NCBI RefSeq assembly: GCF_003287405.1
Contig: NZ_PRLD01000016.1
Span: forward strand, 1 to 46,602
Direction: 5' to 3'
Length of the DNA: 46,602 nucleotides
Source of the DNA: Faecalibacterium prausnitzii
GTDB lineage: Bacteria; Bacillota; Clostridia; Oscillospirales; Ruminococcaceae
The translations under genes and the position numbers were made by a program. A model generated the notes under the pieces. That model made no database searches. It worked only from the letters and a program-made list of their open reading frames with translations, and had not been told where the DNA came from. Every line of letters starts with the position of its first letter. Position 1 is the stretch's first letter. Below are positions 30,421-42,618 of the stretch, piece by piece.

Positions 30421-31809
30421 ATGGATCAGGCACTGAATCAGAAAATTGACGCATACATTGCGGAAAACAAAGAGCAGCTGCTGCAGGACATTGCAGCGCT
30501 GGTCGCCATCGACAGCGTGGAGGGCACCCCGGAGGAGGGCGCACCCTTCGGCGCAGGCCCCCGGGCAGCGCTGGACAAGACGCTGGAGCTGGCAGCAGGC
30601 ATGGGCTTTGCCACCCGCAACTGCGAAAACTACATCGGCTATGCCGAACTGGCCGGTGCAGACCCTGAAAAATATCTGGCTACCATCTGCCATGTGGACG
30701 TTGTGCCTGTGGGCAACGGCTGGACGGCAGATCCCTTTAAGATGCGCATTCAGGACGGCTGGCTGCTGGGACGCGGCGTCGCGGATGATAAAGGCCCGAT
30801 GATCGTTACCCTGTACGCGCTGAAGTTCCTCAAGGAGCAGGGTTACCAGCTGCGCTACCCCATCCGTGCCATCGTGGGCGACAACGAGGAGACCCACATG
30901 AACGATGTGAAGTACTATCTGGAAAACTACCCCGCCCCGGTGTTCTGCTTTACCCCGGATGCCGAGTTCCCGGTGTGCAACGGCGAAAAAGGCCACTTTG
31001 GCGGCAAGATCGTCAGCCCGGTGTGCAACGGCGTCATTGCAGAGTTTGAGGGCGGTGTAGCCAACAACGCTGTGCCGGACCGCGCCAGCGCTCTGGTCAA
31101 GACCGATATCAGCAAGCTGAAGAACGCTCCCAACATCACGCTGGAACCGGAAGGGGACGGCGTGCGGGTGCGCGGCTGGGGCAAGTCCGGCCACGCCGCC
31201 ATGCCGGAGGGCACGGTGAACGCCATTGGTCTGGTAGCGGATTATCTGCTGGATAACGGCCTGTGCAATGACGCCGAGCGCGCTTATCTGGAGGCACTGC
31301 ACAAGCTGCACAGCTCCACCGCAGGCACCGGCCTTGGTATCGACTGCGCCGACGGCCCCTTTGGCCCGCTGACCATTATCGGCGGCCGCATCTATATGGA
31401 GGACGGCAAGCTGGTGCAGACCATCGACAGCCGCTTCCCCACCTGCACCAATGGCGAAAAGCTGACCGCACAGGTCACCGCTGCGCTGGGCGAGGGCGCA
31501 AAGCTGGAGGATGTGGACGCAGCCGAGCCGTTCTATATCGCAGCCGACAGCCCCGCCATCCGCGCCTGCATCGACACCTACAACGAGGTGACCGGCGAGA
31601 ACGCCACCCCCTTTACCATGGGCGGCGGCACCTATGCCCGCCACTTCCCCTATGCCGTCAGCTTCGGCCCGGAGCATGAGGATGTAAAGCTGCCGGAGTT
31701 CGGCGGCCCGATGCACGGTGCCAACGAGGCAGCTCCCATCAACAAGCTGCTGGAGGCCGTCAAGATCTACATTCTGGCGCTGCTGCGGCTGGAAGAGATC
31801 GACTTCTGA
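30421..31809 (+). CDS. pepV: Sapep/PepV-type metallodipeptidase
   Basis: 462 residues, M20 family. Metal ligands are visible in TICHVDVVPVG (His and Asp), RGVADDKGP, GDNEETHMND (Glu-Glu) and CFTPDAEFPVCNGEKG; the C-terminal His lies in GTYARHFPYA. The lid domain carries KSGHAAMPEGTVNAIG. It cleaves dipeptides, including beta-Ala and D-amino-acid forms, in the cytoplasm. AAAGGACG precedes the ATG. The next gene starts 8 bp after the stop. Confidence 0.93.
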   Translation: MDQALNQKIDAYIAENKEQLLQDIAALVAIDSVEGTPEEGAPFGAGPRAALDKTLELAAGMGFATRNCENYIGYAELAGADPEKYLATICHVDVVPVGNGWTADPFKMRIQDGWLLGRGVADDKGPMIVTLYALKFLKEQGYQLRYPIRAIVGDNEETHMNDVKYYLENYPAPVFCFTPDAEFPVCNGEKGHFGGKIVSPVCNGVIAEFEGGVANNAVPDRASALVKTDISKLKNAPNITLEPEGDGVRVRGWGKSGHAAMPEGTVNAIGLVADYLLDNGLCNDAERAYLEALHKLHSSTAGTGLGIDCADGPFGPLTIIGGRIYMEDGKLVQTIDSRFPTCTNGEKLTAQVTAALGEGAKLEDVDAAEPFYIAADSPAIRACIDTYNEVTGENATPFTMGGGTYARHFPYAVSFGPEHEDVKLPEFGGPMHGANEAAPINKLLEAVKIYILALLRLEEIDF

Positions 31810-31817
31810 GGTACAGC

Positions 31818-32237
31818 ATGAACGTGCTTGTCATTGACGGGCAGGGCGGGGGACTGGGACGCCAGCTGGTGGCCGCCCTCAGCGCCCAGTGCCCGGACAT
31901 CCGGCTGGTGGCCGTGGGCACCAACAGTGTCGCCGCGCAGGCCATGCACAAGGCCGGGGCGCAGCGCGCCGCCACCGGTGAGAATGCCGTGGTGGTGAAC
32001 TGCCGCAGCGCGGATATCATCGTGGGGCCCATCGGCATCGTCATTGCAGACGCGCTGCTGGGGGAGATCACCCCCGCCATGGCCACGGCGGTGTGCCAGA
32101 GCAGCGCCACCCGGGTGCTGATCCCGGTGAACCACTGCGAGAACTACATTGTCGGCGTGCCCGACCAGCCCATCGGCAGCCTTGTGTCTGCCGCCGTGCA
32201 GAAGGTAAAGTCCCTCTGTGCCGGGGAAGGGTGTTAA
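31818..32237 (+). CDS. DUF3842 family protein
   Basis: 139 residues. The opening MNVLVIDGQGGGLGRQLV has the look of a nucleotide-binding Rossmann turn, followed by VAVGTNSVAAQAMHKAGA, DIIVGPIGIVIADALLGEIT and IPVNHCENYIVGV, all characteristic of DUF3842. The function is unknown; cytoplasmic. It lies 8 bp after pepV and ends at a strong terminator, so it is the last gene of that unit. Confidence 0.9.
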   Translation: MNVLVIDGQGGGLGRQLVAALSAQCPDIRLVAVGTNSVAAQAMHKAGAQRAATGENAVVVNCRSADIIVGPIGIVIADALLGEITPAMATAVCQSSATRVLIPVNHCENYIVGVPDQPIGSLVSAAVQKVKSLCAGEGC

Positions 32238-32247
32238 AGAATAAGAT

Positions 32248-32292
32248 AAAACGACACCGGACAGGTCATGGCCTGTCCGGTGTCGTTTTTGT
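32248..32292. terminator. Bidirectional terminator
   Basis: AAAACGACACCGGACAGG (32248-32265) and CCTGTCCGGTGTCGTTTT (32272-32289) form a perfect 18-bp stem, serving the pepV unit and cysE. Confidence 0.9.
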
Positions 32293-32304
32293 CAAAAATA
32301 TAGG

Positions 32305-32976
32305 TTACTTCCGCTGCCGGGCGGCGATCTGCGCGGCAGTGGGCGGGATATCGCCCTGCGCCGCTTTTTCCAGCTGGCTCAGGCGGCGATCCAGATCGGT
32401 GAGCCGCTGCGAGACGAGATCCGGCAGATCCTGCTGATCCAGATCGTCGGCGGGGTTCACCGCCTTGTTGTTGATGCGCACCACCTCGGCGGGTACGCCC
32501 ACGGCGGTGCAGTTGGCGGGCAGGTTGCGCAGCACCACGCTGCCTGCGCCGATGCGGGCGTTATCCCCGATGAACACCGGACCCAGCACCTTGGTGCCAG
32601 CGCCGATGAGCACGTTGTTGCCCAAGGTGGGGTGGCGCTTGCCGGTATCCTTGCCGGTACCGCCCAGCGTTACCCCGTGGTAGATGGTGCAGTTGTCTCC
32701 GATCTCGCAGGTCTCGCCGAACACGATGCCCATGCCGTGGTCGATGAACAGACACTTGCCGATGGTGGCACCCGGGTGGATCTCGATGCCGGTGCGGTGG
32801 CGGCCATGCTGGCTGACCCACCGTGCCAGAAAAAAGTGCTTGTGCCCGTACAGCCAGTGCGCAATGCGGTGGTACACCAGAATGTGGAATCCCGGGTACA
32901 GCAGCATTACCTCCAGCACGCTGCGTGCGGCGGGGTCCTTGCGCTGGATGTTCCGCGCGTCCTCAAGTAAACCCAT
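32305..32976 (-). CDS. cysE: Serine O-acetyltransferase
   Basis: 223 residues from the ATG at 32976 with GAGAGG upstream; a start 12 codons earlier lacks a site. The N-terminal helical part is short, as in Gram-positive enzymes. The left-handed beta-helix starts near GIEIHPGATIGKCLFIDHG and contains the active-site His in HGMGIVFGE, then YHGVTLGGTGKDTGKRHPT and IGAGTKVLGPV. It makes O-acetylserine for cysteine synthesis. The C-terminal extension (about 50 residues, DLDQQDLPDLVSQRLTDLDR onward) is a charged coiled coil and longer than the minimal enzyme; its role is unclear. Minus-strand TATAAT lies 62 bp upstream. Confidence 0.93.
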   Translation of the reverse strand: MGLLEDARNIQRKDPAARSVLEVMLLYPGFHILVYHRIAHWLYGHKHFFLARWVSQHGRHRTGIEIHPGATIGKCLFIDHGMGIVFGETCEIGDNCTIYHGVTLGGTGKDTGKRHPTLGNNVLIGAGTKVLGPVFIGDNARIGAGSVVLRNLPANCTAVGVPAEVVRINNKAVNPADDLDQQDLPDLVSQRLTDLDRRLSQLEKAAQGDIPPTAAQIAARQRK

Positions 32977-33043
32977 GCGGAAAACCTCTCTTTCCCATAA
33001 ACACCCGCCCACGCGGCGGGGCTCTCCCTTTTACCGTATTATA

Positions 33044-33197
33044 ATAGCACAGCAGGCAACGAAAGTACAGTGCTGCGCTAGGGATTGTGGAACAAAATGG
33101 CAGTTATTTTGCCGCGTTGCCTGGGTTTTGGGTAGAGTATCCAAAATTCGGCGAGAGATACCAGAAACCTTTTAGCACCTGTTTTTGCGCGCAGCCA
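33044..33197. other. Divergent cysE/pyrC intergenic region
   Basis: A TATAAT for cysE (minus, 33043-33038) lies at the left. A small hairpin TTTTGG/CCAAAA (about 33129-33148) follows. No T-box or PyrR-binding structure is recognised here. Confidence 0.4.
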
Positions 33198-33227
33198 TTG
33201 ACACATTTTGCGGTTCTATGATAAAAT
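33198..33227 (+). promoter_or_regulatory. Promoter of the pyr leader and pyrC
   Basis: -35 TTGACA (33198-33203, consensus), 18-bp spacer, -10 TAAAAT (33222-33227). Transcription would start near 33234, giving a leader of about 210 nt before pyrC. Confidence 0.75.
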
Positions 33228-33269
33228 AATACGAATGAAAACGCAACCATCAAGAAAAGGAGAAACACC

Positions 33270-33359
33270 ATGCTGTGCAGCGCCCAGAACCCGAAACTGA
33301 ACAAGCAGTTCGCGTCCGGTTTTGCCGTGGCTTCGTTGTTTCCTTTTTTTGCACAATGA
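33270..33359 (+). CDS. pyr leader peptide (29 residues)
   Basis: A 29-codon frame starts at ATG 33270, with AAAGGAG ending 7 bp upstream, one of the best ribosome sites in the window. Its last third is encoded by pyrimidine-rich, mostly T-rich DNA (TTGTTTCCTTTTTTT, 33336-33350), and it ends FPFFAQ with TGA at 33357-33359. The stop is followed after one base by the 5' arm of a terminator. This is the arrangement of the enterobacterial pyrBI leader. If the transcript pauses in the T-rich stretch at low UTP, a following ribosome would cover the stem and let pyrC be read. The leader role is inferred. Confidence 0.65.
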   Translation: MLCSAQNPKLNKQFASGFAVASLFPFFAQ

Positions 33360-33360
33360 G

Positions 33361-33391
33361 CTTTTCCCTTTGCGGGGAAAAGTTTTTTTTT
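33361..33391 (+). terminator. Attenuator terminator before pyrC
   Basis: CTTTTCCC (33361-33368) pairs with GGGAAAAG (33375-33382), followed by nine Ts (33383-33391). It directly follows the leader peptide stop and precedes the pyrC start by 53 bp. Confidence 0.85.
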
Positions 33392-33444
33392 GCCCGTTTT
33401 CGGGCGTCTGATACACAAAAATACCATTATAGGAGGGAACCGCG

Positions 33445-34635
33445 ATGCTGCTGACAAACGCTGTGAACACCGAGGGACGGCCGCTCGAGATCTATGTAAA
33501 GGATGGCAAGATCGCTGCCGTAGGGCAGGATCTTTCCGCCCTTGCCGCCGAGAACGAGACGGTGGTGGATGCCGGTGGGCTGACTGTGCTGCCCGCATTT
33601 GTGGATCTGCACTGCCACTGGCGCACCCCGGGCTTTGAGTACAAGGAGGACATCGAGACTGGCAGCCGCGCCGCTGCCGCCGGCGGCTACACCTTTGTAA
33701 ACCTGATGCCCAACACAAAGCCCGTCTGCTCTTCTGCCGCACAGGCTGTGATGGTGGAACAGAAAGCCGCCGAGGTGGGGCTGTGCGATGCAAACCAGAC
33801 CGTTTCCATCACCGAAAACTTTGACGGTGTGAGCATCGACCACCTCAAGACCCTGCCCGCCAGTGTGAAGTTCATCACCGAGGACGGCCACGGCGTGCAG
33901 GATAACGCCACCATGGCGCGGGCCTTTGCCATCTGCACCCAGAAGGACATCACGGTCATGAGCCACGCCGAGGATATGGAGATCAGCCCGTGGGACTACC
34001 GTCTGGCCGAGGATATTGAGACGGTGCGCAACTGCTGGCTGAGCGAGTACTACCAGACCCGGCTGCACATGTGCCATGTGTCCACCCGGGGCGCGCTGGA
34101 CGCCATCCGCATGGCAAAGCTGCGGGGCGCACCCGTCACCTGTGAGGTGACCCCCCACCACCTGTGGTTTACCAACGATACCTGCGACTACCGGGTCAAC
34201 CCGCCCATCCGCACCGCCGACGATGTGGAGGCGCTGGTGGAGGGCATCCGCACCGGCATCGTGGACGCCATTGCCACTGACCACGCACCCCACTCCGAAG
34301 AGGATAAGCTGAAGGGCATGGCCGGTATGGTGGGCAGCGAGACCGCCTTCGGCGTGTGCTACACCAAGCTCTGCAAGCAGGAGGGGTTGCCGCTGGAGCT
34401 GCTGGTGCACCTGATGAGCACCCGCCCCGCCGAGATCCTGGGTCTTGCCAAGGGTCAGCTGGAGCCGGGCTTTGATGCCGACTTTGTGCTGGTGGATCTG
34501 GACACCCCCTACACGGTGGAAAAGGAAAAGCTGCACTCCAAGAGCCATAACACCCCCTTTGACGGTGCACAGCTTTACGGCAAGGTGTTTGCCACCATCA
34601 AGGCCGGTAAGATCACCTATCAGGCCGAGGAGTAA
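33445..34635 (+). CDS. pyrC: Dihydroorotase
   Basis: 396 residues. The start ATG 33445 has AGGAGGG 8 bp upstream. Zinc ligands are visible: DLHCHWR (HxH, 56-58), TEDGHGVQD, MSHAED, HMCHVST and ATDHAPHS with the catalytic Asp. It cyclizes carbamoyl aspartate to dihydroorotate. It opens the pyrimidine cluster and is preceded by the leader peptide and attenuator. A palindromic repeat separates it from pyrF. Confidence 0.95.
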   Translation: MLLTNAVNTEGRPLEIYVKDGKIAAVGQDLSALAAENETVVDAGGLTVLPAFVDLHCHWRTPGFEYKEDIETGSRAAAAGGYTFVNLMPNTKPVCSSAAQAVMVEQKAAEVGLCDANQTVSITENFDGVSIDHLKTLPASVKFITEDGHGVQDNATMARAFAICTQKDITVMSHAEDMEISPWDYRLAEDIETVRNCWLSEYYQTRLHMCHVSTRGALDAIRMAKLRGAPVTCEVTPHHLWFTNDTCDYRVNPPIRTADDVEALVEGIRTGIVDAIATDHAPHSEEDKLKGMAGMVGSETAFGVCYTKLCKQEGLPLELLVHLMSTRPAEILGLAKGQLEPGFDADFVLVDLDTPYTVEKEKLHSKSHNTPFDGAQLYGKVFATIKAGKITYQAEE

Positions 34636-34646
34636 AAAGAACGAAA

Positions 34647-34725
34647 CCCTCTCAGGCAAAGCCTTACGGTAAGGGGCTTGGCTCTCCCTTTGGGAGAGCT
34701 GCCGAACGAAGTGAGGCTGAGAGGG
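34647..34725. repeat. Palindromic repeat between pyrC and pyrF
   Basis: Outer arms CCCTCTCAG (34647-34655) and CTGAGAGGG (34717-34725) enclose CTTACGGTAAG and CTCTCCC-TTT-GGGAGAG hairpins. It is followed by CGAGGACGCT, as is the related repeat at 38.2 kb. This REP-like family is inserted inside a biosynthetic operon. Confidence 0.8.
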
Positions 34726-34793
34726 CGAGGACGCTTACAAGATGTGATATAACGATACCTAATATAACAGAGAACAAACAGGAGGACACCCAA

Positions 34794-35660
34794 ATGACGA
34801 ACATGGACAAACTGTACGAAGCTGTGGAAGCCCGCGGCCCGGTGTGCGTGGGTCTGGACACCGACTTCAGCTACCTGCCTGCCGATTTTGTGGACAGCAC
34901 CCTGACCAAGGGCGAGAACATCGTGCGCTTCAACAAGAAGCTCATTGATGCCACCAAGGCTGTGGCTGGCTGCTACAAGGTGCAGATCGCTTATTATGAG
35001 TCTCTGGGCATGGAGGGCATGAAGGCCTACGCCGACACCCTGAAGGCTGTGCGCGAGACCGGTGTGCCGGTGATCGCGGATATCAAGCGCGGCGATATCG
35101 CCAAGACCGCCGAGATGTACGCCATGGGTCACTTTACCGGCGATTTCGAGAGCGACTTCGTTACGCTGGCACCCTATATGGGTCTGGACTCCATCAGCCC
35201 CTACCTGCCCTATGCCGAAAAGCAGGGCAAGGGTATGTTCGTACTCTGCCGCACCTCCAACGGAGGTGCCAAGGACTTTGAGTACGAGAAGCTGGCCGAC
35301 GGCCGCCACGTCTACGATCTGGTGGGTGACAAGCTGAACGCACTGGGCAAGGACTACATGGGCGAGCACGGCTACTCCTCCATCGGTCTGGTCATCGGCG
35401 GCACCCACATCGAGGAAGCCACCGAGATCCGCGCAAAGTATCAGGACAGCTTCTTCCTGATCCCCGGCTACGGCGCACAGGGCGGCAAGGCTGAGGATAT
35501 TGCCCAGTACCTGACCAAGGGCAACGGCGGCGTGGTCAACTCCAGCCGCGGCATCCTGCTGGCTTACAAAAAGCAGCCGGGCACTGCCTTTGACGAGGCC
35601 GCTTACAACGAGTGTGTGAACATGAAGGAGGCCATTGCTCATGCGTGCAGCCTGCTGTGA
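34794..35660 (+). CDS. pyrF: Orotidine 5'-phosphate decarboxylase
   Basis: 288 residues, the longer group 2 form. VCVGLDTDFSYLP is at the N-terminus; the catalytic Lys-Asp set is in ADIKRGDIAKTAEMYA; IPGYGAQGG and GVVNSSRGIL are the phosphate-binding end. It produces UMP. AGGAGG lies 9 bp before the ATG. The 3' end overlaps the pyrK start by 20 bp, so pyrF-pyrK-pyrD form one tight unit. Confidence 0.95.
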   Translation: MTNMDKLYEAVEARGPVCVGLDTDFSYLPADFVDSTLTKGENIVRFNKKLIDATKAVAGCYKVQIAYYESLGMEGMKAYADTLKAVRETGVPVIADIKRGDIAKTAEMYAMGHFTGDFESDFVTLAPYMGLDSISPYLPYAEKQGKGMFVLCRTSNGGAKDFEYEKLADGRHVYDLVGDKLNALGKDYMGEHGYSSIGLVIGGTHIEEATEIRAKYQDSFFLIPGYGAQGGKAEDIAQYLTKGNGGVVNSSRGILLAYKKQPGTAFDEAAYNECVNMKEAIAHACSLL

Positions 35661-36414
35661 AGCCACCGTCCTGCGCAATGAGGTCATTGCCCCGGACATC
35701 CGCCTGCTGACCGTGGTGTGGCCGGACCGCGACCACGCCCCCCACGCAGGCCAGTTCTTCACCCTGCGCTCCTGGGGCGCAGATGAAGCGCCCTTCCTGT
35801 CCCGCCCCATCAGCGTGCACCGCTGGAACCCGGACAGCAGCACCATCGAGTTTTTGTATCAGGTTGTGGGCGAGGGCACCGAGAAGCTGGCACAGCTCAA
35901 GCAGCAGGATACCTTCCAGCTTACCGGCCCTATGGGCAACGGCTTTGATGTGCCGGACATCCTGAGCAAGTACAAAAAGATCGCCGTGGTGGGCGGCGGC
36001 ATCGGCACTGCGCCCATGTTCCAGCTCACTCGCGAGCTGGCCGCTGCCGGGGTAAAGCCGGATGTGTTCTTCGGCTTCCGCGATACCCCCTACTGCATGG
36101 AGGAGTACCGCAGCATCGCAAACCTCGTCAAGGTGTCCACCGACACCGGCGCGGTGGGCTTCCACGGCTTTGTCACCCAGCTGTACGACCCCGCCGATTA
36201 CGATGTGGTGCTGGTGTGCGGCCCCACCGTGATGATGAAGAACGCCGCCCGCCTGTGTGCCGAAAAAGGCACTCCCTGCTTTGTGAGCATGGAAAAGAAG
36301 ATGGCCTGCGGCATTGGTGCCTGCCTTGGCTGCACCTGCGAGACCAAGGGCGGCGAGGGCAAGAGCGTGTGCAAGAACGGCCCTGTATTTGACGCAACGG
36401 AGGTGTTCTTCTGA
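35641..36414 (+). CDS. pyrK: Dihydroorotate dehydrogenase B electron-transfer subunit
   Basis: 257 residues. Start ATG 35641 fits AAGGAGG at 9 bp; a TTG two codons earlier is too close. FAD-binding SRPISVHRW and NAD-binding VVGGGIGTAPMFQL are present; the C-terminal 2Fe-2S site is CGIGACLGCTC with a fourth Cys in SVCKNGPVF. It pairs with PyrD to pass electrons from dihydroorotate to NAD+. It overlaps both neighbours. Confidence 0.95.
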   Translation: MRAACCEATVLRNEVIAPDIRLLTVVWPDRDHAPHAGQFFTLRSWGADEAPFLSRPISVHRWNPDSSTIEFLYQVVGEGTEKLAQLKQQDTFQLTGPMGNGFDVPDILSKYKKIAVVGGGIGTAPMFQLTRELAAAGVKPDVFFGFRDTPYCMEEYRSIANLVKVSTDTGAVGFHGFVTQLYDPADYDVVLVCGPTVMMKNAARLCAEKGTPCFVSMEKKMACGIGACLGCTCETKGGEGKSVCKNGPVFDATEVFF

Positions 36415-37340
36415 TGGCAGACCTGAAAACCAACCTGCTGGGCTTTGTGATGAACAGCCCGGTCATCGGCGCATCCGGCACCGTGGGCTACGGTGTGGAG
36501 TACGAGGAACTGGCCGATTTTGCTAAAATCGGCGGCATCTCCGGCAAGGGGCTTACCCTGCACGGCCAGTACGGCAACAAGGGCGAACGCCTGTGGGAGA
36601 CCCCCTCCGGTCTCATCAACAGCATCGGCCTGCAGAACCCCGGCGTGCAGCACTTTATTGACGTGGAACTGCCCGAGATGCTGGAGCTGAAGCAGAAGTA
36701 CGGCACGGTGGCTATTGCAAACCTTGGCGGCCACAGCGAGGAAGAGTATGTGGAAGGCGCTGCGATGCTGAGCGAGAGCGCAGTGGACATCGTGGAGCTG
36801 AACATCTCCTGCCCCAACGTCAAGGTGGGCGGCATGGCCTACGGCGTGAAAGCCGAAGCTGCCGGCGAGGTGGTGCGCATGGTGCGCGCTGCCTGCAAAA
36901 AGCCCCTGATGGTCAAGCTGAGCCCGCAGGCCGAGAACATCCCCGAGATGTGCAAGGCTGTGGAAGCCGCCGGTGCGGACGCCATCAGCCTGACCAACAC
37001 CTTCCAGGCTTGCGCCATTGATCTGGAAAAGCGCCGCCCGGTGTTCAACAACATCTTTGCGGGCTTGTCCGGCCCGGCGGTGCGCCCCATCGCCCTGCGT
37101 ATGGTATGGCAGGCCGTGGGGGCTGTGAACATCCCGGTGGTGGGTCTGGGCGGCATTGCCACCGGCCGTGACGCACTGGAGTTCATCATGGCAGGCGCTG
37201 CCGCAGTGCAGGTGGGCGCCGCAAACTTTGCAAACCCCCGCGCCATGGAGACCATTGCCGACGAGATGGCAGCATGGATGGACAAGAACGGCGTGAAAAC
37301 GCTGGACGAAATCCGCGGCTGCGCCCGTCATGCAGAATAA
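36414..37340 (+). CDS. pyrD: Dihydroorotate dehydrogenase B catalytic subunit
   Basis: 308 residues; ATG overlaps the pyrK stop. Markers: NSPVIGASGTVGYGVEY, GLTLHGQYGNKGERLWETPS, SIGLQNPGVQHF, ELNISCPNVKVGG (class 1B, with a catalytic Cys in the loop), VKLSPQAENI, and the FMN-phosphate end VGLGGIATGRDALEFIMAGA. It oxidizes dihydroorotate to orotate with PyrK. No terminator follows; a 137-bp AT-rich gap with a new promoter leads to pyrE. Confidence 0.96.
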   Translation: MADLKTNLLGFVMNSPVIGASGTVGYGVEYEELADFAKIGGISGKGLTLHGQYGNKGERLWETPSGLINSIGLQNPGVQHFIDVELPEMLELKQKYGTVAIANLGGHSEEEYVEGAAMLSESAVDIVELNISCPNVKVGGMAYGVKAEAAGEVVRMVRAACKKPLMVKLSPQAENIPEMCKAVEAAGADAISLTNTFQACAIDLEKRRPVFNNIFAGLSGPAVRPIALRMVWQAVGAVNIPVVGLGGIATGRDALEFIMAGAAAVQVGAANFANPRAMETIADEMAAWMDKNGVKTLDEIRGCARHAE

Positions 37341-37402
37341 AAGCTGATATATCCATAAAATATCTACAATTATGCGCATAAAATAAAACTTAACGCATAA
37401 AT

Positions 37403-37431
37403 TTGCAAATAACGTAAAAGCGTGGTACAAT
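37403..37431 (+). promoter_or_regulatory. Promoter of pyrE
   Basis: -35 TTGCAA (37403-37408), 17-bp spacer, -10 TACAAT (37426-37431), 46 bp before the ATG. Confidence 0.65.
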
Positions 37432-37477
37432 ACCACCCAAAGGAATATACACCACTGAAAAGAGAGGGAGAAGTACA

Positions 37478-38071
37478 ATGAGTGAAGCACTTGAAATTCT
37501 GAAGAGCTGTGACGCATTTCTGGAGGGGCACTTCCTGCTGTCCTCCGGCCGACACTCCGGCGCATACTGCCAGATGGCTTATCTGCAGCAGTACCCGGAC
37601 CGCTGCGCCGAGGTGATGAAGGCTGTGGCCGACAAGGTCAAGGAGATGGACGTGGACGTCATCGTCGGCCCTGCCATGGGCGGCATCGTGTACGCCTACG
37701 AGCTGGCCCGCCAGACCGGCAAGCGCGCCATCTTTACCGAGCGCGTGGACAACGTGATGTGCCTGAAGCGCTTTGCCATCCACCCGGGTGAAAAGTGCAT
37801 CATCGCCGAGGACGTGGTGACCACCGGCATCTCCTCTCTGGAGACCAAGCGCGTCATCGAAGAGGCCGGCGGCATCTGCCTTGGCATCACCTGTGTTGTG
37901 GACCGCACCAAGCCCGAAGCTCCGTCTCCCATTCCCATTCTGGCCAGCGCCTTGAAGCTGGATCTGCCCAACTACACCCCGGAGGAGTGCCCCATCTGCA
38001 AGGAGGGCAAGCTGCCGCTGGTGCATCTGGGCAGCCGCAAGATGAAGCAGGAAGCAAAGCAGACCCTGTAA
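37478..38071 (+). CDS. pyrE: Orotate phosphoribosyltransferase
   Basis: 197 residues. FLLSSGRHSGAYCQM at the N-terminus, VIVGPAMGGIVYAYELAR, FTERV, and the PRPP-binding loop CIIAEDVVTTGISSLE are in order. It converts orotate to OMP. The C-terminus has an unusual CPICKEGKLPLVHLGSRK with two cysteines; this tail is typical of the longer Clostridia PyrE group. AGAGGGAGAAG lies before the ATG. Confidence 0.95.
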   Translation: MSEALEILKSCDAFLEGHFLLSSGRHSGAYCQMAYLQQYPDRCAEVMKAVADKVKEMDVDVIVGPAMGGIVYAYELARQTGKRAIFTERVDNVMCLKRFAIHPGEKCIIAEDVVTTGISSLETKRVIEEAGGICLGITCVVDRTKPEAPSPIPILASALKLDLPNYTPEECPICKEGKLPLVHLGSRKMKQEAKQTL

Positions 38072-38080
38072 GAGAGTTCG

Positions 38081-38209
38081 CCCTCTCAGGCCGCTTCGCG
38101 TCCAGCTCTCCCAAAGGGAGAGCCCTTGGCAAAACCATAAACTTTGCATGGACTGCCAAGGCCTCCCACTTTGGGGGAGGTGGCAGCGCGTCAGCGCTGA
38201 CGGAGAGGG
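38081..38209. repeat. Composite palindromic repeat between pyrE and carA
   Basis: It begins CCCTCTCAGGCCGCTTCGCG (38081-38100), with CTCTCCC-AAA-GGGAGAG following. A second palindrome GCCTCCCACTTTGGGGGAGG comes next, then CAGCGCGTCAGCGCTG, ending GGAGAGGG (38202-38209) and CGAGGACGCTG. It is the same family as 34647-34725, apparently two units head to tail or nested. Confidence 0.75.
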
Positions 38210-38258
38210 CGAGGACGCTGAAAATATGACAACATTCTGCGTTGAAACGAGGAAAACT

Positions 38259-39365
38259 ATGAACGCATATCTTCTTTTGGCAAACGGCATGGTCTTTGCC
38301 GGACAGTCCGTGGGCGCGCAGGGCGTGACCGTGGGCGAGGTGGTGTTCTCCACCGGCATGGTGGGCTTTCAGGAGACCCTGACCGACCCCAGCTACTACG
38401 GCCAGATCATCACCCAGACCTATCCCCTCATCGGCAACTACGGCATGAACCACGATGACATGGAGTCCGACCGCATCTGGGCAAAGGGCTACATTGTGCG
38501 CGAAGCCTGCACCACCCCCTCCAACTGGCGCTGTGAGGAGACGCTGGACAGCTTTTTGAAAAAGAACAACACCATCGGCATTGAGGGCATCGACACCCGC
38601 CACCTGACCCGCATCATCCGGGAGAGCGGCGTGATGAACGGCGCCATCCTGACCACCTTTGACCCCGCCGACCCGGCCAACAAGGCCGAGACCGAGGCTC
38701 TGCTGGCCGAGATCCGCGCCTATGCCGTGACCGATGCTGTGAAGAACGTGACCTGCGCCGCTCCCGAGGTGTTCAACCCGGAAGGCGAGACCCATATCGT
38801 GCTGATGCACTACGGCTGCAAGCGCAACATCGTGCGCTGCCTTGTCAAGCGCGGCTGCAAGGTGACCGTGATGCCCGCCTTTGCAACGGCAGAGGAAATC
38901 AAAGCCCTTGCCCCGGACGGCATTATGCTGTCCAACGGCCCCGGCGACCCCGCCGAGCCGGTGGAAATCATCGAGAACCTCAAGCACATCTTTGAACTGA
39001 ACATTCCCACCTTCGGCATCTGTCTGGGTCACCAGCTGTCCGCACTGGCAGCCGGTGCCAAGACCATGAAGCTGAAGTACGGCCACCGCGGTGCCAACCA
39101 GCCTGTGACCGACTTTGAGTCCGGCCGCACCTTTATCACCAGCCAGAACCACGGCTATGCGGTCGTGGGCGAGGAGCTGCCCGCCGAGATGGGCGAGGTG
39201 GCACAGGTGAACGCCAACGACGGCACCTGCGAGGGCATCAAGTACAAAAAGTGGAACTGCTTTACCGTACAGTTCCACCCGGAAGCAAACGGCGGCCCCA
39301 AGGACACCGAATTCCTGTTCGACCGCTTCCTGAACAACGTCAAAGCAGCAAAGGAGGCACGCTGA
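38259..39365 (+). CDS. carA: Carbamoyl-phosphate synthase small subunit
   Basis: 368 residues. Start ATG 38259 has GAGGA 6 bp upstream; earlier in-frame starts lie inside the repeat. The N-terminal domain contains VVFSTGMVGFQETLTDPSY; the class I glutaminase has FGICLGHQ (catalytic Cys) and the His/Glu pair in VQFHPEANGGP. It supplies ammonia from glutamine to CarB. It ends 1 bp before carB. Confidence 0.96.
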   Translation: MNAYLLLANGMVFAGQSVGAQGVTVGEVVFSTGMVGFQETLTDPSYYGQIITQTYPLIGNYGMNHDDMESDRIWAKGYIVREACTTPSNWRCEETLDSFLKKNNTIGIEGIDTRHLTRIIRESGVMNGAILTTFDPADPANKAETEALLAEIRAYAVTDAVKNVTCAAPEVFNPEGETHIVLMHYGCKRNIVRCLVKRGCKVTVMPAFATAEEIKALAPDGIMLSNGPGDPAEPVEIIENLKHIFELNIPTFGICLGHQLSALAAGAKTMKLKYGHRGANQPVTDFESGRTFITSQNHGYAVVGEELPAEMGEVAQVNANDGTCEGIKYKKWNCFTVQFHPEANGGPKDTEFLFDRFLNNVKAAKEAR

Positions 39366-39366
39366 A

Positions 39367-42300
39367 ATGCCGAAGGACCCCAGAATCAAAAAGGTGCTGG
39401 TCATTGGCTCCGGCCCTATCATCATTGGTCAGGCTGCGGAGTTTGACTACTCCGGCACGCAGGCCTGCCGCGCCCTGAAAGCAGAGGGCATCGAGACCGT
39501 TCTGCTGAACTCCAACCCCGCTACCATCATGACCGACCCGGACGTGGCCGACCATGTGTATATCGAGCCCATGACGCTGGAAGTCGTGGAGCGCATTCTG
39601 GACATCGAAAAGCCGGACTCCGTGCTGCCCAACCTCGGCGGCCAGATGGGTCTGAACCTGTCCATGGAGCTGGCACGCTCCGGTTATCTGGACCGCACCG
39701 GCATCCGTCTGCTGGCCTGCAATCCCGAGACCATCGACCGTGCCGAGGACCGCGAGCTGTTCAAGGAGACCATGGAAAAGCTGCACCAGCCCATCATCCC
39801 CTCTGAGGTGGTGGAGAACCTGCAGGACGCACTGGACTGCGCCGACCGCATTGGCTACCCGGTCATCGTGCGTCCGGCCTTTACCATGGGCGGCACCGGC
39901 GGCGGCATCTGCGAGACCCGCGAAAAGCTGATCGAGATCGGCACCAACGGCCTGCGCCTTTCTCCCATCCATCAGATTTTGGTGGAAAAGTGCATCGCCG
40001 GCTGGAAAGAGATCGAGTACGAGGTGATGCGTGACCACAAGGGCAACGTGATCACTGTATGTAACATGGAAAACCTCGACCCCGTGGGCATCCACACCGG
40101 TGACTCGGTGGTCGTGGCTCCCTCCCAGACCCTGACCGACCACGAGTACCAGATGCTGCGTACCGCTGCACTGGATATCATCACCGAGCTGGGCATCGAG
40201 GGCGGCTGCAACTGCCAGTTCGCTCTGAAGCCGGACAGCTTCGACTACGCGGTCATCGAGGTCAACCCCCGTGTGTCCCGCTCCTCCGCACTGGCTTCCA
40301 AGGCTACCGGCTACCCCATTGCCAAGGTGGCTACCAAGATCGCCATCGGCTACACGCTGGACGAGATCACCAACGACGTTACCGGCAAGACCTGCGCCTG
40401 CTTCGAGCCTGCGCTGGACTACATCGTGGTCAAGTACCCGAAGTGGCCGTTTGATAAGTTCGTCTACGCCGACAAGTCTCTGGGCACCCAGATGATGGCT
40501 ACCGGCGAGGTGATGAGCATCGGCAACAGCTTTGAAGCCGCCATGATGAAGGCTGTTTCCTCCATTGAGCTGGGCATGGACACCCTGACCCACAAGCCCT
40601 TTGAGGAGCTGACCGACGAGGAAGTGGTGGAGCATATGCACGTTCAGGACGCCGAGCGCGTGTTCTGCGTGTACGAAGCACTGAAGCGCGGCATCGACCA
40701 CAAGGTCATCTACGATATCACCAAGATCGACTGGTGGTTCCTGGACAAGATGCAGCATCTGGCAGATCTGGAAAAGGGTCTGGCACAGTGCAACGGCCAG
40801 CTGTCTTTGGAGCAGTACAAGACTGCCAAGAAGTACGGCTTCCAGGATAAGACCATCCGCCGTCTGGCAAAGGTGGACACCCTGCCCGTGGAGAACTACC
40901 GCGCCGGCTTCAAGATGGTGGATACCTGCGCTGCCGAGTTCTCTGCAAATACCCCCTACTTCTACTCCACCTACGATGGCGACAACGAGGCCGCAGGCTT
41001 TATCGCTGAGAAGGAAGCTGAGACCGCAGCCAAGGGCGAGCCTAAAAAGAAGAAGGTTCTGGTCTTTGGCTCCGGCCCCATCCGCATTGGTCAGGGCATC
41101 GAGTTCGACTACTGCTCTGTGCACTGCGTATGGACGCTGAAAAAGAACGGCTGCGAGGCCATTCTGGTCAACAACAACCCCGAGACCGTCTCCACCGACT
41201 TTGATACCGGCGACCGTCTGTACTTCGACCCGCTGAACCCGGAGAGCGTGGACAACATCATTGCCACCGAAAAGCCGGATGCCTGCGTGGTGCAGTTCGG
41301 CGGACAGACCGCCATCAAGCTGGCCAAGCACATGGACGAGATCGGCCTGCCCATTCTGGGCACCCCGGCGGATGCCATCGATGAAGCCGAGGACCGCGAG
41401 CGCTTTGACGAGCTGCTGGAGCGCTGCAACATCCCCCGTGCCCCGGGCCGCACCGTGTTCAATCTGGACGAGGCTCTGGCCGCTGCCGAGGAGATCGGCC
41501 TGCCGGTGCTGATGCGTCCCTCCTATGTGCTGGGCGGTCAGAACATGATCGTGGCCTACAACAAGGCGGATATCATCGAGTACATGGGCGTTATCACCGA
41601 GCACGTCGATATGGATCACCCGGTGCTGCTGGATAAGTACATCATGGGTACCGAGTGCGAGGTGGACGCCATCTGCGATGGCGAAAACTTCCTGATCCCC
41701 GGCATCATGGAGCAGGTGGAGCGCACCGGTGTGCACTCCGGCGACTCTATCTGTGTCTACCCGGCACAGCACCTGACGCAGGACGAGATCGACACCATGG
41801 TGGATTACACCGGCCGCTTTGCCCGCGAGCTGCACGTCACCGGTCTGGTCAACGTGCAGTACGCCGTCTCCCATGGCCGCGTGTACGTCATCGAGGTGAA
41901 CCCCCGCTCCTCCCGTACCGTGCCTTACATCTCCAAGGTCACCGGCGTGCCCATGGTGGATCTGGCCGTGCGCTGCTGCTTGGGCGAGAAGCTGACGGAT
42001 ATGGGCTACGGCACCGGTCTGCACCCCAACGCCCCCTATGTGGCGGTAAAGGTGCCTGTGTTCAGCTTTGAAAAGCTGCACGCCGTGGATACCCAGTTCG
42101 GCCCCGAGATGAAGTCTACCGGCGAGGTGCTGGGTATTGCGCCCAACTACCACGATGCCCTGCTCAAGGGTCTGATCGGTGCAGGCTATACCTTTAAGAC
42201 CCCCGGCCCGGGCAGCTGCTGCATCTTCACCGTGAAGGACAGCGACAAGCCCGAGTTCGTGGATATTGCATGGAAGCTGAAGGATATGGGCTACAAGCTC

Positions 42301-42618
42301 TACGGTACCTCCGGCACCTGTGCATGGCTCAACAAGCACATGGTCCCCTGCAACGAGGTGCGCAACATCTCCGGCGAGGCTCCCAACATCGTGGATCTGC
42401 TGCAGAGCGGTCTGGTGGACTATGTGTTCTCCACCAGTGCCAAGGGTCGTGACCCCCGGCGCGATTCCGTCCGTCTGCGCCGCAAGGCCGTGGAGCTGAG
42501 CATCCCCTGCATCACCGCAGTGGATACCGCCGCTTCTCTGGTGGACTGCCTGCGCAGCGAGCACAGTCTGGCAAACATCCCGCTGGTGGATATCGCCACT
42601 CTGTACCGCGGCAAATAA
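39367..42618 (+). CDS. carB: Carbamoyl-phosphate synthase large subunit
   Basis: 1083 residues, normal length. Two duplicated ATP-grasp halves: the first opens VLVIGSGPIIIGQAAEFDYS, the second VLVFGSGPIRIGQGIEFDYC (near residue 560). Both carry the NxNPxT strand (LLNSNPATIMTD; LVNNNPETVST) and the metal-binding EVNPR motif (VIEVNPRVSRSS; VIEVNPRSSRT). The C-terminal MGS-like allosteric domain covers about 930-1083. It makes carbamoyl phosphate for pyrimidines and arginine. It closes the pyrimidine cluster. Confidence 0.97.
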   Translation: MPKDPRIKKVLVIGSGPIIIGQAAEFDYSGTQACRALKAEGIETVLLNSNPATIMTDPDVADHVYIEPMTLEVVERILDIEKPDSVLPNLGGQMGLNLSMELARSGYLDRTGIRLLACNPETIDRAEDRELFKETMEKLHQPIIPSEVVENLQDALDCADRIGYPVIVRPAFTMGGTGGGICETREKLIEIGTNGLRLSPIHQILVEKCIAGWKEIEYEVMRDHKGNVITVCNMENLDPVGIHTGDSVVVAPSQTLTDHEYQMLRTAALDIITELGIEGGCNCQFALKPDSFDYAVIEVNPRVSRSSALASKATGYPIAKVATKIAIGYTLDEITNDVTGKTCACFEPALDYIVVKYPKWPFDKFVYADKSLGTQMMATGEVMSIGNSFEAAMMKAVSSIELGMDTLTHKPFEELTDEEVVEHMHVQDAERVFCVYEALKRGIDHKVIYDITKIDWWFLDKMQHLADLEKGLAQCNGQLSLEQYKTAKKYGFQDKTIRRLAKVDTLPVENYRAGFKMVDTCAAEFSANTPYFYSTYDGDNEAAGFIAEKEAETAAKGEPKKKKVLVFGSGPIRIGQGIEFDYCSVHCVWTLKKNGCEAILVNNNPETVSTDFDTGDRLYFDPLNPESVDNIIATEKPDACVVQFGGQTAIKLAKHMDEIGLPILGTPADAIDEAEDRERFDELLERCNIPRAPGRTVFNLDEALAAAEEIGLPVLMRPSYVLGGQNMIVAYNKADIIEYMGVITEHVDMDHPVLLDKYIMGTECEVDAICDGENFLIPGIMEQVERTGVHSGDSICVYPAQHLTQDEIDTMVDYTGRFARELHVTGLVNVQYAVSHGRVYVIEVNPRSSRTVPYISKVTGVPMVDLAVRCCLGEKLTDMGYGTGLHPNAPYVAVKVPVFSFEKLHAVDTQFGPEMKSTGEVLGIAPNYHDALLKGLIGAGYTFKTPGPGSCCIFTVKDSDKPEFVDIAWKLKDMGYKLYGTSGTCAWLNKHMVPCNEVRNISGEAPNIVDLLQSGLVDYVFSTSAKGRDPRRDSVRLRRKAVELSIPCITAVDTAASLVDCLRSEHSLANIPLVDIATLYRGK

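Follow-up and report, generated by a model that had tools for sequence, protein, structure and literature searches.

The pyrC-pyrF-pyrK-pyrD-pyrE-carA-carB operon of Faecalibacterium prausnitzii is, on balance, probably controlled by a ribosome-gated, translation-coupled attenuator, in which the loading of a ribosome on a short leader would compete with the closure of its ribosome-binding region (segment A) by a distal tract of the same leader (segment B). This reading was obtained by sequence analysis of a stretch of 46,602 nucleotides, hereafter the window, and of related genomes. The pairing of the leader ribosome site with its own distal pyrimidine tract is the new element here. The comparison supports attenuation coupled to translation rather than control by PyrR; the preliminary description, which had proposed a UTP-sensing leader of the pyrBI kind before pyrC, appears to have been right in kind and incomplete in mechanism.

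The leader and terminator upstream of pyrC

All the features of the pyr locus described here lie on the forward strand. A sigma-70-type promoter at 33198..33227 consists of TTGACA (33198-33203) and TAAAAT (33222-33227) separated by 18 nt; it matches the consensus at 11 of 12 positions and has TG before the −10 element. The promoter motif is common, by eye, to most upstream regions of the genus, two of which (L025 and L030) are cut before the motif. Transcription presumably starts near 33233-33234. The leader Shine-Dalgarno site AAAAGGAG, read directly at 33255-33262, lies within segment A (33250..33267), which can pair with segment B in a duplex of −15.4 kcal/mol that is supported by covariation. 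The leader reading frame (33270..33359), which was read directly and is supported by conservation, starts with the ATG at 33270 and consists of 29 codons, MLCSAQNPKLNKQFASGFAVASLFPFFAQ, followed by TGA. Segment B (33334..33352) is a U-rich distal pyrimidine tract, the putative anti-ribosome-site, and was delimited by the fold, the T counts and covariation. The stop codon TGA (33357..33359) overlaps the base of an intrinsic terminator, the attenuator (33358..33391), which was identified by fold and by pattern and has its stem at 33358-33385 and a run of nine T at 33383-33391. The ATG of pyrC is located at 33445, 53 bp beyond this run.

The predicted stem of 33358-33385, at approximately −14.4 kcal/mol, includes the final two nucleotides of TGA, whereas the core stem, CTTTTCC...GGAAAAG, begins at 33361. 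The preliminary description placed the stop one base before the stem, which is correct for the core stem and does not hold for the full predicted fold. The promoter, the 29-codon leader, the strong Shine-Dalgarno site, the terminator with its nine T and the 53 bp to pyrC were all found as it had given them.

pyrC (33445..34635), the first gene of the operon proposed to be controlled, encodes dihydroorotase and scores over the cut-off of TIGR00857. It is followed by pyrF, pyrK, pyrD, pyrE, carA and carB (34794..42618), each scoring over its curated family cut-off, and pyrF to carB are presumed, from gene order and strand alone, to be transcribed from the pyrC promoter as well.

Three further elements were observed in this region. 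Two related inverted-repeat-rich elements of the GAACCCTCTCAGGC...GAGAGGG type are found at 34636-34790 and 38070-38260, in the pyrC/pyrF and pyrE/carA gaps; they match at 82% over 61 nt when opposite strands are compared, and look like a dispersed intergenic repeat within the operon. Behind a cysE-like gene, which is oriented divergently to the pyr operon, the minus strand has a very strong terminator (32248-32289) whose stem counts 18 pairs.

A terminator scan over 31000-40000 gave 11 hits against 8.2 ± 2.8 in shuffled sequences, which is not above chance, so that the case for the attenuator depends on conservation. Relatives of the locus were found by PyrC alignment; they include F. prausnitzii ATCC 27768 (PyrC 99% identical), and the 80 named loci reach Gemmiger, Fournierella, Ruthenibacterium, Subdoligranulum and others. 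With a single script, a leader and a terminator were detected in 67 of the 80 loci and in 1 of 240 dinucleotide shuffles, where the sequences are related and the counts are not those of independent events. The stop abuts or overlaps the stem (position −1 or 0) in 63 of the 67 leaders. The conservation of leader frame, stop and terminator in relatives, on which the preliminary description had let its proposal depend, is what these counts give.

Among the 13 loci missed by the script, four (L200, L220, L225 and L228) show, by eye, a terminator at which an open frame ends, and these were left out of every count. The other nine have neither element (L174, L181 and L183, which are of the Anaerofilum type, L217, L221-L224 and L226); there the upstream gene apparently reaches pyrC, and the device appears to be missing or lost. 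At one further locus (L170:796-960), 185 nt separate the terminator from pyrC, where a few dozen are usual, and the interval holds what by eye resembles a second promoter. A second draw from the family covered 40 of the 42 genomes outside the genus with a close PyrC (G081 and G087 were left out) and shares organisms with the first draw; 24 had a leader and a terminator, 2 a terminator only and 14 neither.

Within the genus, PyrC was found in 31 of 31 genomes, and 30 loci were used for the upstream comparison. In 26 of these 30, a simple pattern recognized the terminator together with a leader that ends there; the four missed loci carry a variant stem, and in one of these (L009) the frame ends, by eye, inside the hairpin loop. 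The pattern CTTTTCC-N2..10-GGAAAAGTTTTTT occurs once each in 25 of the 31 genomes and is absent from the other 6. All 25 matches lie just upstream of pyrC, the reversed control pattern occurred 0 times, and no exact match to this hairpin was found elsewhere in the 31 genomes. A second copy of the device at pyrB was considered and rejected, as the 250 nt before pyrB, inspected by eye in the 30 genus loci, hold the preceding gene and no such hairpin.

Ribosome-site pairing and PyrR

In the minimum-energy folds, at least 10 of the 14 ribosome-site bases are paired with the frame in 55 of the 67 leaders. Two sub-groups of Faecalibacterium differ by paired changes, with AAAGGAGAC facing GUUUCCUUU in one and GGGGAAC facing GUUCCCC in the other. 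Covariation was counted in the alignments A2 (Faecalibacterium, 21 sequences) and A3 (Gemmiger, 10 sequences), not in A4; the A:B structure of A2 was named after the sequences had been viewed and that of A3 is RNAalifold's own, and both choices favour the structure. In A2, 26 double-change cells were counted against 9.6 ± 4.3 in shuffled alignments (0 of 500 as high), while one slid version of the structure gave 23 and the pair-type count was not above that of the shuffles (173/500). The covariation score of A2 was 0.329, compared with 0.188-0.231 for slid structures, and its paired cells amounted to 78.5%, compared with 54.6-67.8%. In A3, 98.0% of the cells were paired against 48.0-70.3% in slid structures; its double-change cells were few, with 3 for the structure and 6 for one slide. 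When the T tail was kept in the alignments, the RNAalifold structures of A2 and A4 had A paired to that tail, and they were set aside.

The mean pairing probability between the ribosome site and the distal frame, computed for 40 of the 67 leaders, was 0.73 for the native sequences; it fell to 0.52 when the codons were permuted and to 0.63 when the ribosome site was a foreign one. The Wilcoxon test, uncorrected for kinship, gave 1.2e-5 for native against permuted and 1.0e-4 for native against foreign. The duplex z relative to permuted codons was below 0 in 59 and below −1 in 40 of 66 leaders, L172 being not computable. The ranks of native against foreign duplexes over the 67 leaders were mixed. 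For L149, a leader of the type found in the window, 36% of the foreign ribosome sites pair as well as the native one, and the window-type duplexes rank 31 and 64 of 67. Several leaders pair poorly, with values of 0.01 for L172 and L218, 0.12 for L178 and 0.39 for L193. The fold of the whole window leader is not significantly better than those of its shuffles, of which 12 in 200 were as good (z −1.56).

When growing transcripts of the window were folded in a model that leaves the polymerase footprint aside, the long A:B helix was present once position 33345 had been reached, and GGAG was already involved in shorter pairings at 33335; the helix appears just before the terminator begins. Pairing of A with the terminator arm is weaker than A:B in 67 of 67 leaders (mean −9.4 against −21.1), and an antiterminator formed by A and this arm was therefore rejected.

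The composition of the leader bears on the role of segment B. T amounts to 33% of the leaders and to 15.7% of pyrC. Of the 346 positions outside B that fall within 6 nt of the stop on its upstream side, 203 are T, compared with 25-34% in the bins more than 12 nt upstream. The Phe codons TTT and TTC number 179 and 86 in the leaders, compared with 301 and 353 in pyrC. In the preliminary description, the T-rich stretch was taken as a pause site only, a role that the T count outside B would allow; the stretch also pairs with the leader ribosome site, which explains part of the T-richness of B. The stretch may thus be, at least partly, an anti-ribosome-site, and a pause role for the leader end alongside the pairing is possible.

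The same T and Phe counts would be expected from plain attenuation of the pyrBI type, in which a pause at low UTP in the U-rich leader end would allow the trailing ribosome to block the terminator, and A:B would be a by-product of a purine-rich site and a pyrimidine-rich tract. The fairly good pairing of foreign ribosome sites points in this direction as well. This explanation is nevertheless considered unlikely because two A:B pairs in Faecalibacterium show compensatory changes from A-U to G-C, in 8 sequences each, because pairings can extend past the purine core, as in the long pairing of L153, and because permuted codons pair less well than the native ones.

In Bacillota, pyr operons are normally under terminator-based control by PyrR, and PyrR-type regulators are usual. 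The present device shares the terminator-based control of pyr genes and differs in that the PyrR protein and its RNA-binding element were not found: none of the 31 genus genomes contains a PyrR protein over the cut-off of NF003549 (weak sub-threshold matches only), with the controls of B. subtilis and L. lactis detected, and no PyrR-binding RNA element (RF00515) was found in the window or in its own genome. A search of 33100-33500 for RNA families, even at E up to 5, returned nothing relevant. PyrR control of the operon was rejected on both counts. The replacement of the PyrR usual in Firmicutes, which the preliminary description had raised, is consistent with these results, and the PyrR-binding loop that it had named as contrary evidence is not seen in the window.

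Among 297 genomes of the family, 120 have PyrR and 47 have a close PyrC (5 of the genus and 42 others), and 0 of these 47 are among the PyrR-bearing genomes when the lists are compared by reading. In 20 PyrR-less relatives with a distant PyrC that were inspected by eye, one clear leader was found (L141, genus g65) and none was recognized in the other 19. Several of these PyrR-less loci (L141 and L129-L148) have hairpins and T runs before pyrC with no leader recognized by eye.

A pyrimidine-responsive protein or small molecule could instead bind the leader RNA, in a riboswitch-like or PyrR-like manner, and stabilize or open A:B. The conservation of A:B as a structure and the frequency of PyrR-type regulators in Bacillota would suit such a ligand. 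It is quite improbable, as no match to a known family was found in the window or in 33100-33500 and as the paired sequences and the loop vary freely between genera, with no conserved binding core by eye; an open frame and a stop at the stem would moreover be superfluous to it.

Presumed translation of the leader

That the leader is translated is supported indirectly. A Shine-Dalgarno-led frame is present in 67 of 67 native leaders, which had been selected for having one. When the upstream 150 nt were shuffled with the stop and terminator fixed, such a frame of 18-44 codons was obtained in 98 of 3350 sequences (2.9%). In five sets of leaders of equal length, about 8.6 stop gains would be expected under neutral change and 0 were seen (P ~2e-4), an estimate biased by the selection of the sets for having a frame. 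Stops occur in the other two frames in 43 and 33 of the 67 leaders, and the changes in frame length are of 3 or 9 nt in the alignments A2 and A4.

Across the genera, the features that are kept are the ribosome site, the anti-site, a frame of 20-39 codons, the stop on the stem and the terminator. This conservation of frame, stop position and pairing, together with the 2.9% chance per sequence, argues against the view that nothing is regulated and that the terminator cuts pyr expression by a fixed fraction with the small frame incidental to it. That 9 of the 80 relatives live without the element is in keeping with this view, which we regard as very improbable, slightly more so than a leader-binding ligand.

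The peptide encoded by the frame is not kept in this manner. Among 16 leaders of 29 codons from Faecalibacterium, the pairwise codon differences are 1788 non-synonymous against 499 synonymous, and the differences at the three codon positions number 1192, 1301 and 1421. The leader peptides diverge between genera while the frame stays open, which suggests that the position of the ribosome matters rather than the peptide. Selection seems to act on the passage of a ribosome to the stem and not on the peptide sequence. No run of one regulatory codon is conserved between the genera of the leader set, and residues near the peptide end are conserved within sub-groups of the genus Faecalibacterium, not between genera.

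Leader attenuators of the trp/his type are alike in that translation of a leader decides the fate of a downstream terminator. They differ in that, according to the excerpted text of PMC4824070, the terminator of amino-acid attenuators and the stop of their leader are separated by more than 20 bp, while the pyrC leader has its stop at the stem and no conserved codon run. A histidine leader has been proposed before hisS paralogs of bacilli, as an excerpt of PMC2965389 describes. Stalling of the ribosome at particular codons or through an arrest peptide is scarcely credible for the pyrC leader, in spite of the Phe codons common near its end, because the peptides differ between genera with mostly non-synonymous changes, the stop lies at the stem, and A, which prefers B to the terminator arm in every leader, would not provide an antiterminator.

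Proposed mechanism and relation to known systems

In the proposed ribosome-gated attenuator, A emerges before B, approximately 65 bases separate the start codon from B, and A is largely free in the predicted folds. When transcription is fast owing to ample UTP, A would pair with B before a ribosome loads and the leader would stay untranslated. The terminator would then fold and transcription would stop; the pairing in this step has the support of covariation, and the consequence is deduced from it. When low UTP slows transcription of the U-rich end of the leader and of the U-rich stem and loop, a ribosome could load and keep A:B open. On reaching the stop at the base of the stem, it would cover the 5′ arm of the hairpin, and the polymerase would continue into pyrC. 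The peptide itself would have no role; the arrival and position of the ribosome would count. We infer UTP as the sensed variable from the identity of the operon and its U-richness. The set of kept features (site, anti-site, frame, stop on the stem and terminator) would let the leader sense how the ribosome and the polymerase are timed relative to each other.

The read-on step is drawn from the anatomy and from experiments in E. coli. According to the excerpted text of PMC4824070, moving the stop to 5 bp from a terminator reduced termination from approximately 90% to less than 10%, which was undone without translation; this result supports ribosome masking as the last step. The engineered E. 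coli terminators described in that excerpt resemble the pyrC leader in that the stop lies a few bases before the stem and the ribosome suppresses termination, and they differ in being synthetic, with neither a ribosome-site gate nor a metabolic signal.

Bacillota are classed at the phylum level, in the excerpted text of PMC13323073, as runaway transcribers whose RNA polymerase outpaces the ribosomes, and this class counts against tight coupling. More tentatively than for the attenuator as a whole, we suggest that the sensor is a loading race, in which the anti-ribosome-site closes the ribosome site of the same leader shortly ahead of the synthesis of the terminator and only slow transcripts that catch a ribosome are extended. 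Such a race would work even if RNA polymerase outruns the ribosomes. On this tentative reading, it would be used by at least two lineages of the family (Faecalibacterium with its relatives, and g65) and might be an overlooked step of E. coli pyrBI, of which the one leader examined folds alike without statistical support.

The mechanism of pyrBI was taken as summarized in excerpts of PMC3641672 and PMC5021804. E. coli pyrBI and its leader pyrL (L229) are alike in having a translated leader and an intrinsic terminator before a pyrimidine gene, with a U-rich stretch near the stem. The Faecalibacterium leader has the site-led frame, the terminator that a ribosome could overlap and the U-rich stretch of the pyrBI type, and lacks its read-through frame. 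The layout of pyrBI, to which the preliminary description had likened the leader, is thus matched in kind, whereas the leader ends at the stem and pyrL runs through the terminator to end 3 nt before pyrB. The other differences from pyrBI are that the device belongs to Bacillota, not enterics, that the operon is led by pyrC, and that the ribosome-site pairing covaries in Faecalibacterium.

In the predicted fold of E. coli K-12 pyrL, the ribosome site GGGAGGAU is paired with UUCUUCCC of the U-rich pause region, and the z of the whole fold is −2.75. In the permutation test on this single leader, P was 0.66 against 0.46, with 28% of the permutations as high, and its best duplex was worse than the permuted one in 88%, an outcome that is weak or contrary.

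A leader of 23-40 codons before a different terminator, of the CCTATCCATT type, was found in 7 of 11 genomes of genus g65 (L231-L237), which belongs to the same family and has a distant type of PyrC; the GTG starts of L234-L237 were chosen by eye, and G094, G253 and G323 were left out. No leader was seen in L239 of this genus, and PyrR is absent in 4 of 4 sampled genomes. The ribosome-site pairing in the seven leaders was 0.94, 0.84, 0.83, 0.72, 0.83, 0.55 and 0.65, compared with 0.48-0.65 for permuted sequences, and it exceeds at least 95% of the permutations in three of them (L231-L233), not in L234-L237. The g65 device is, with less certainty, of a design akin to the Faecalibacterium attenuator, and perhaps of independent origin.

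No earlier description of a leader of this kind from these bacteria was found in the open-access literature, most subscription journals lying outside that search. A ribosome site that covaries with an anti-site next to a terminator is a design element to look for in other leaders. A conserved ribosome-dependent attenuator in Bacillota would make the question of runaway transcription testable on one short leader. If the proposed attenuator is true, it would account for how pyrimidine synthesis could be controlled in a major genus of the human gut, and in the relatives of that genus, when PyrR is missing; the conservation described here suggests that these related bacteria may gauge their pyrimidine supply through a race between ribosome and RNA polymerase.
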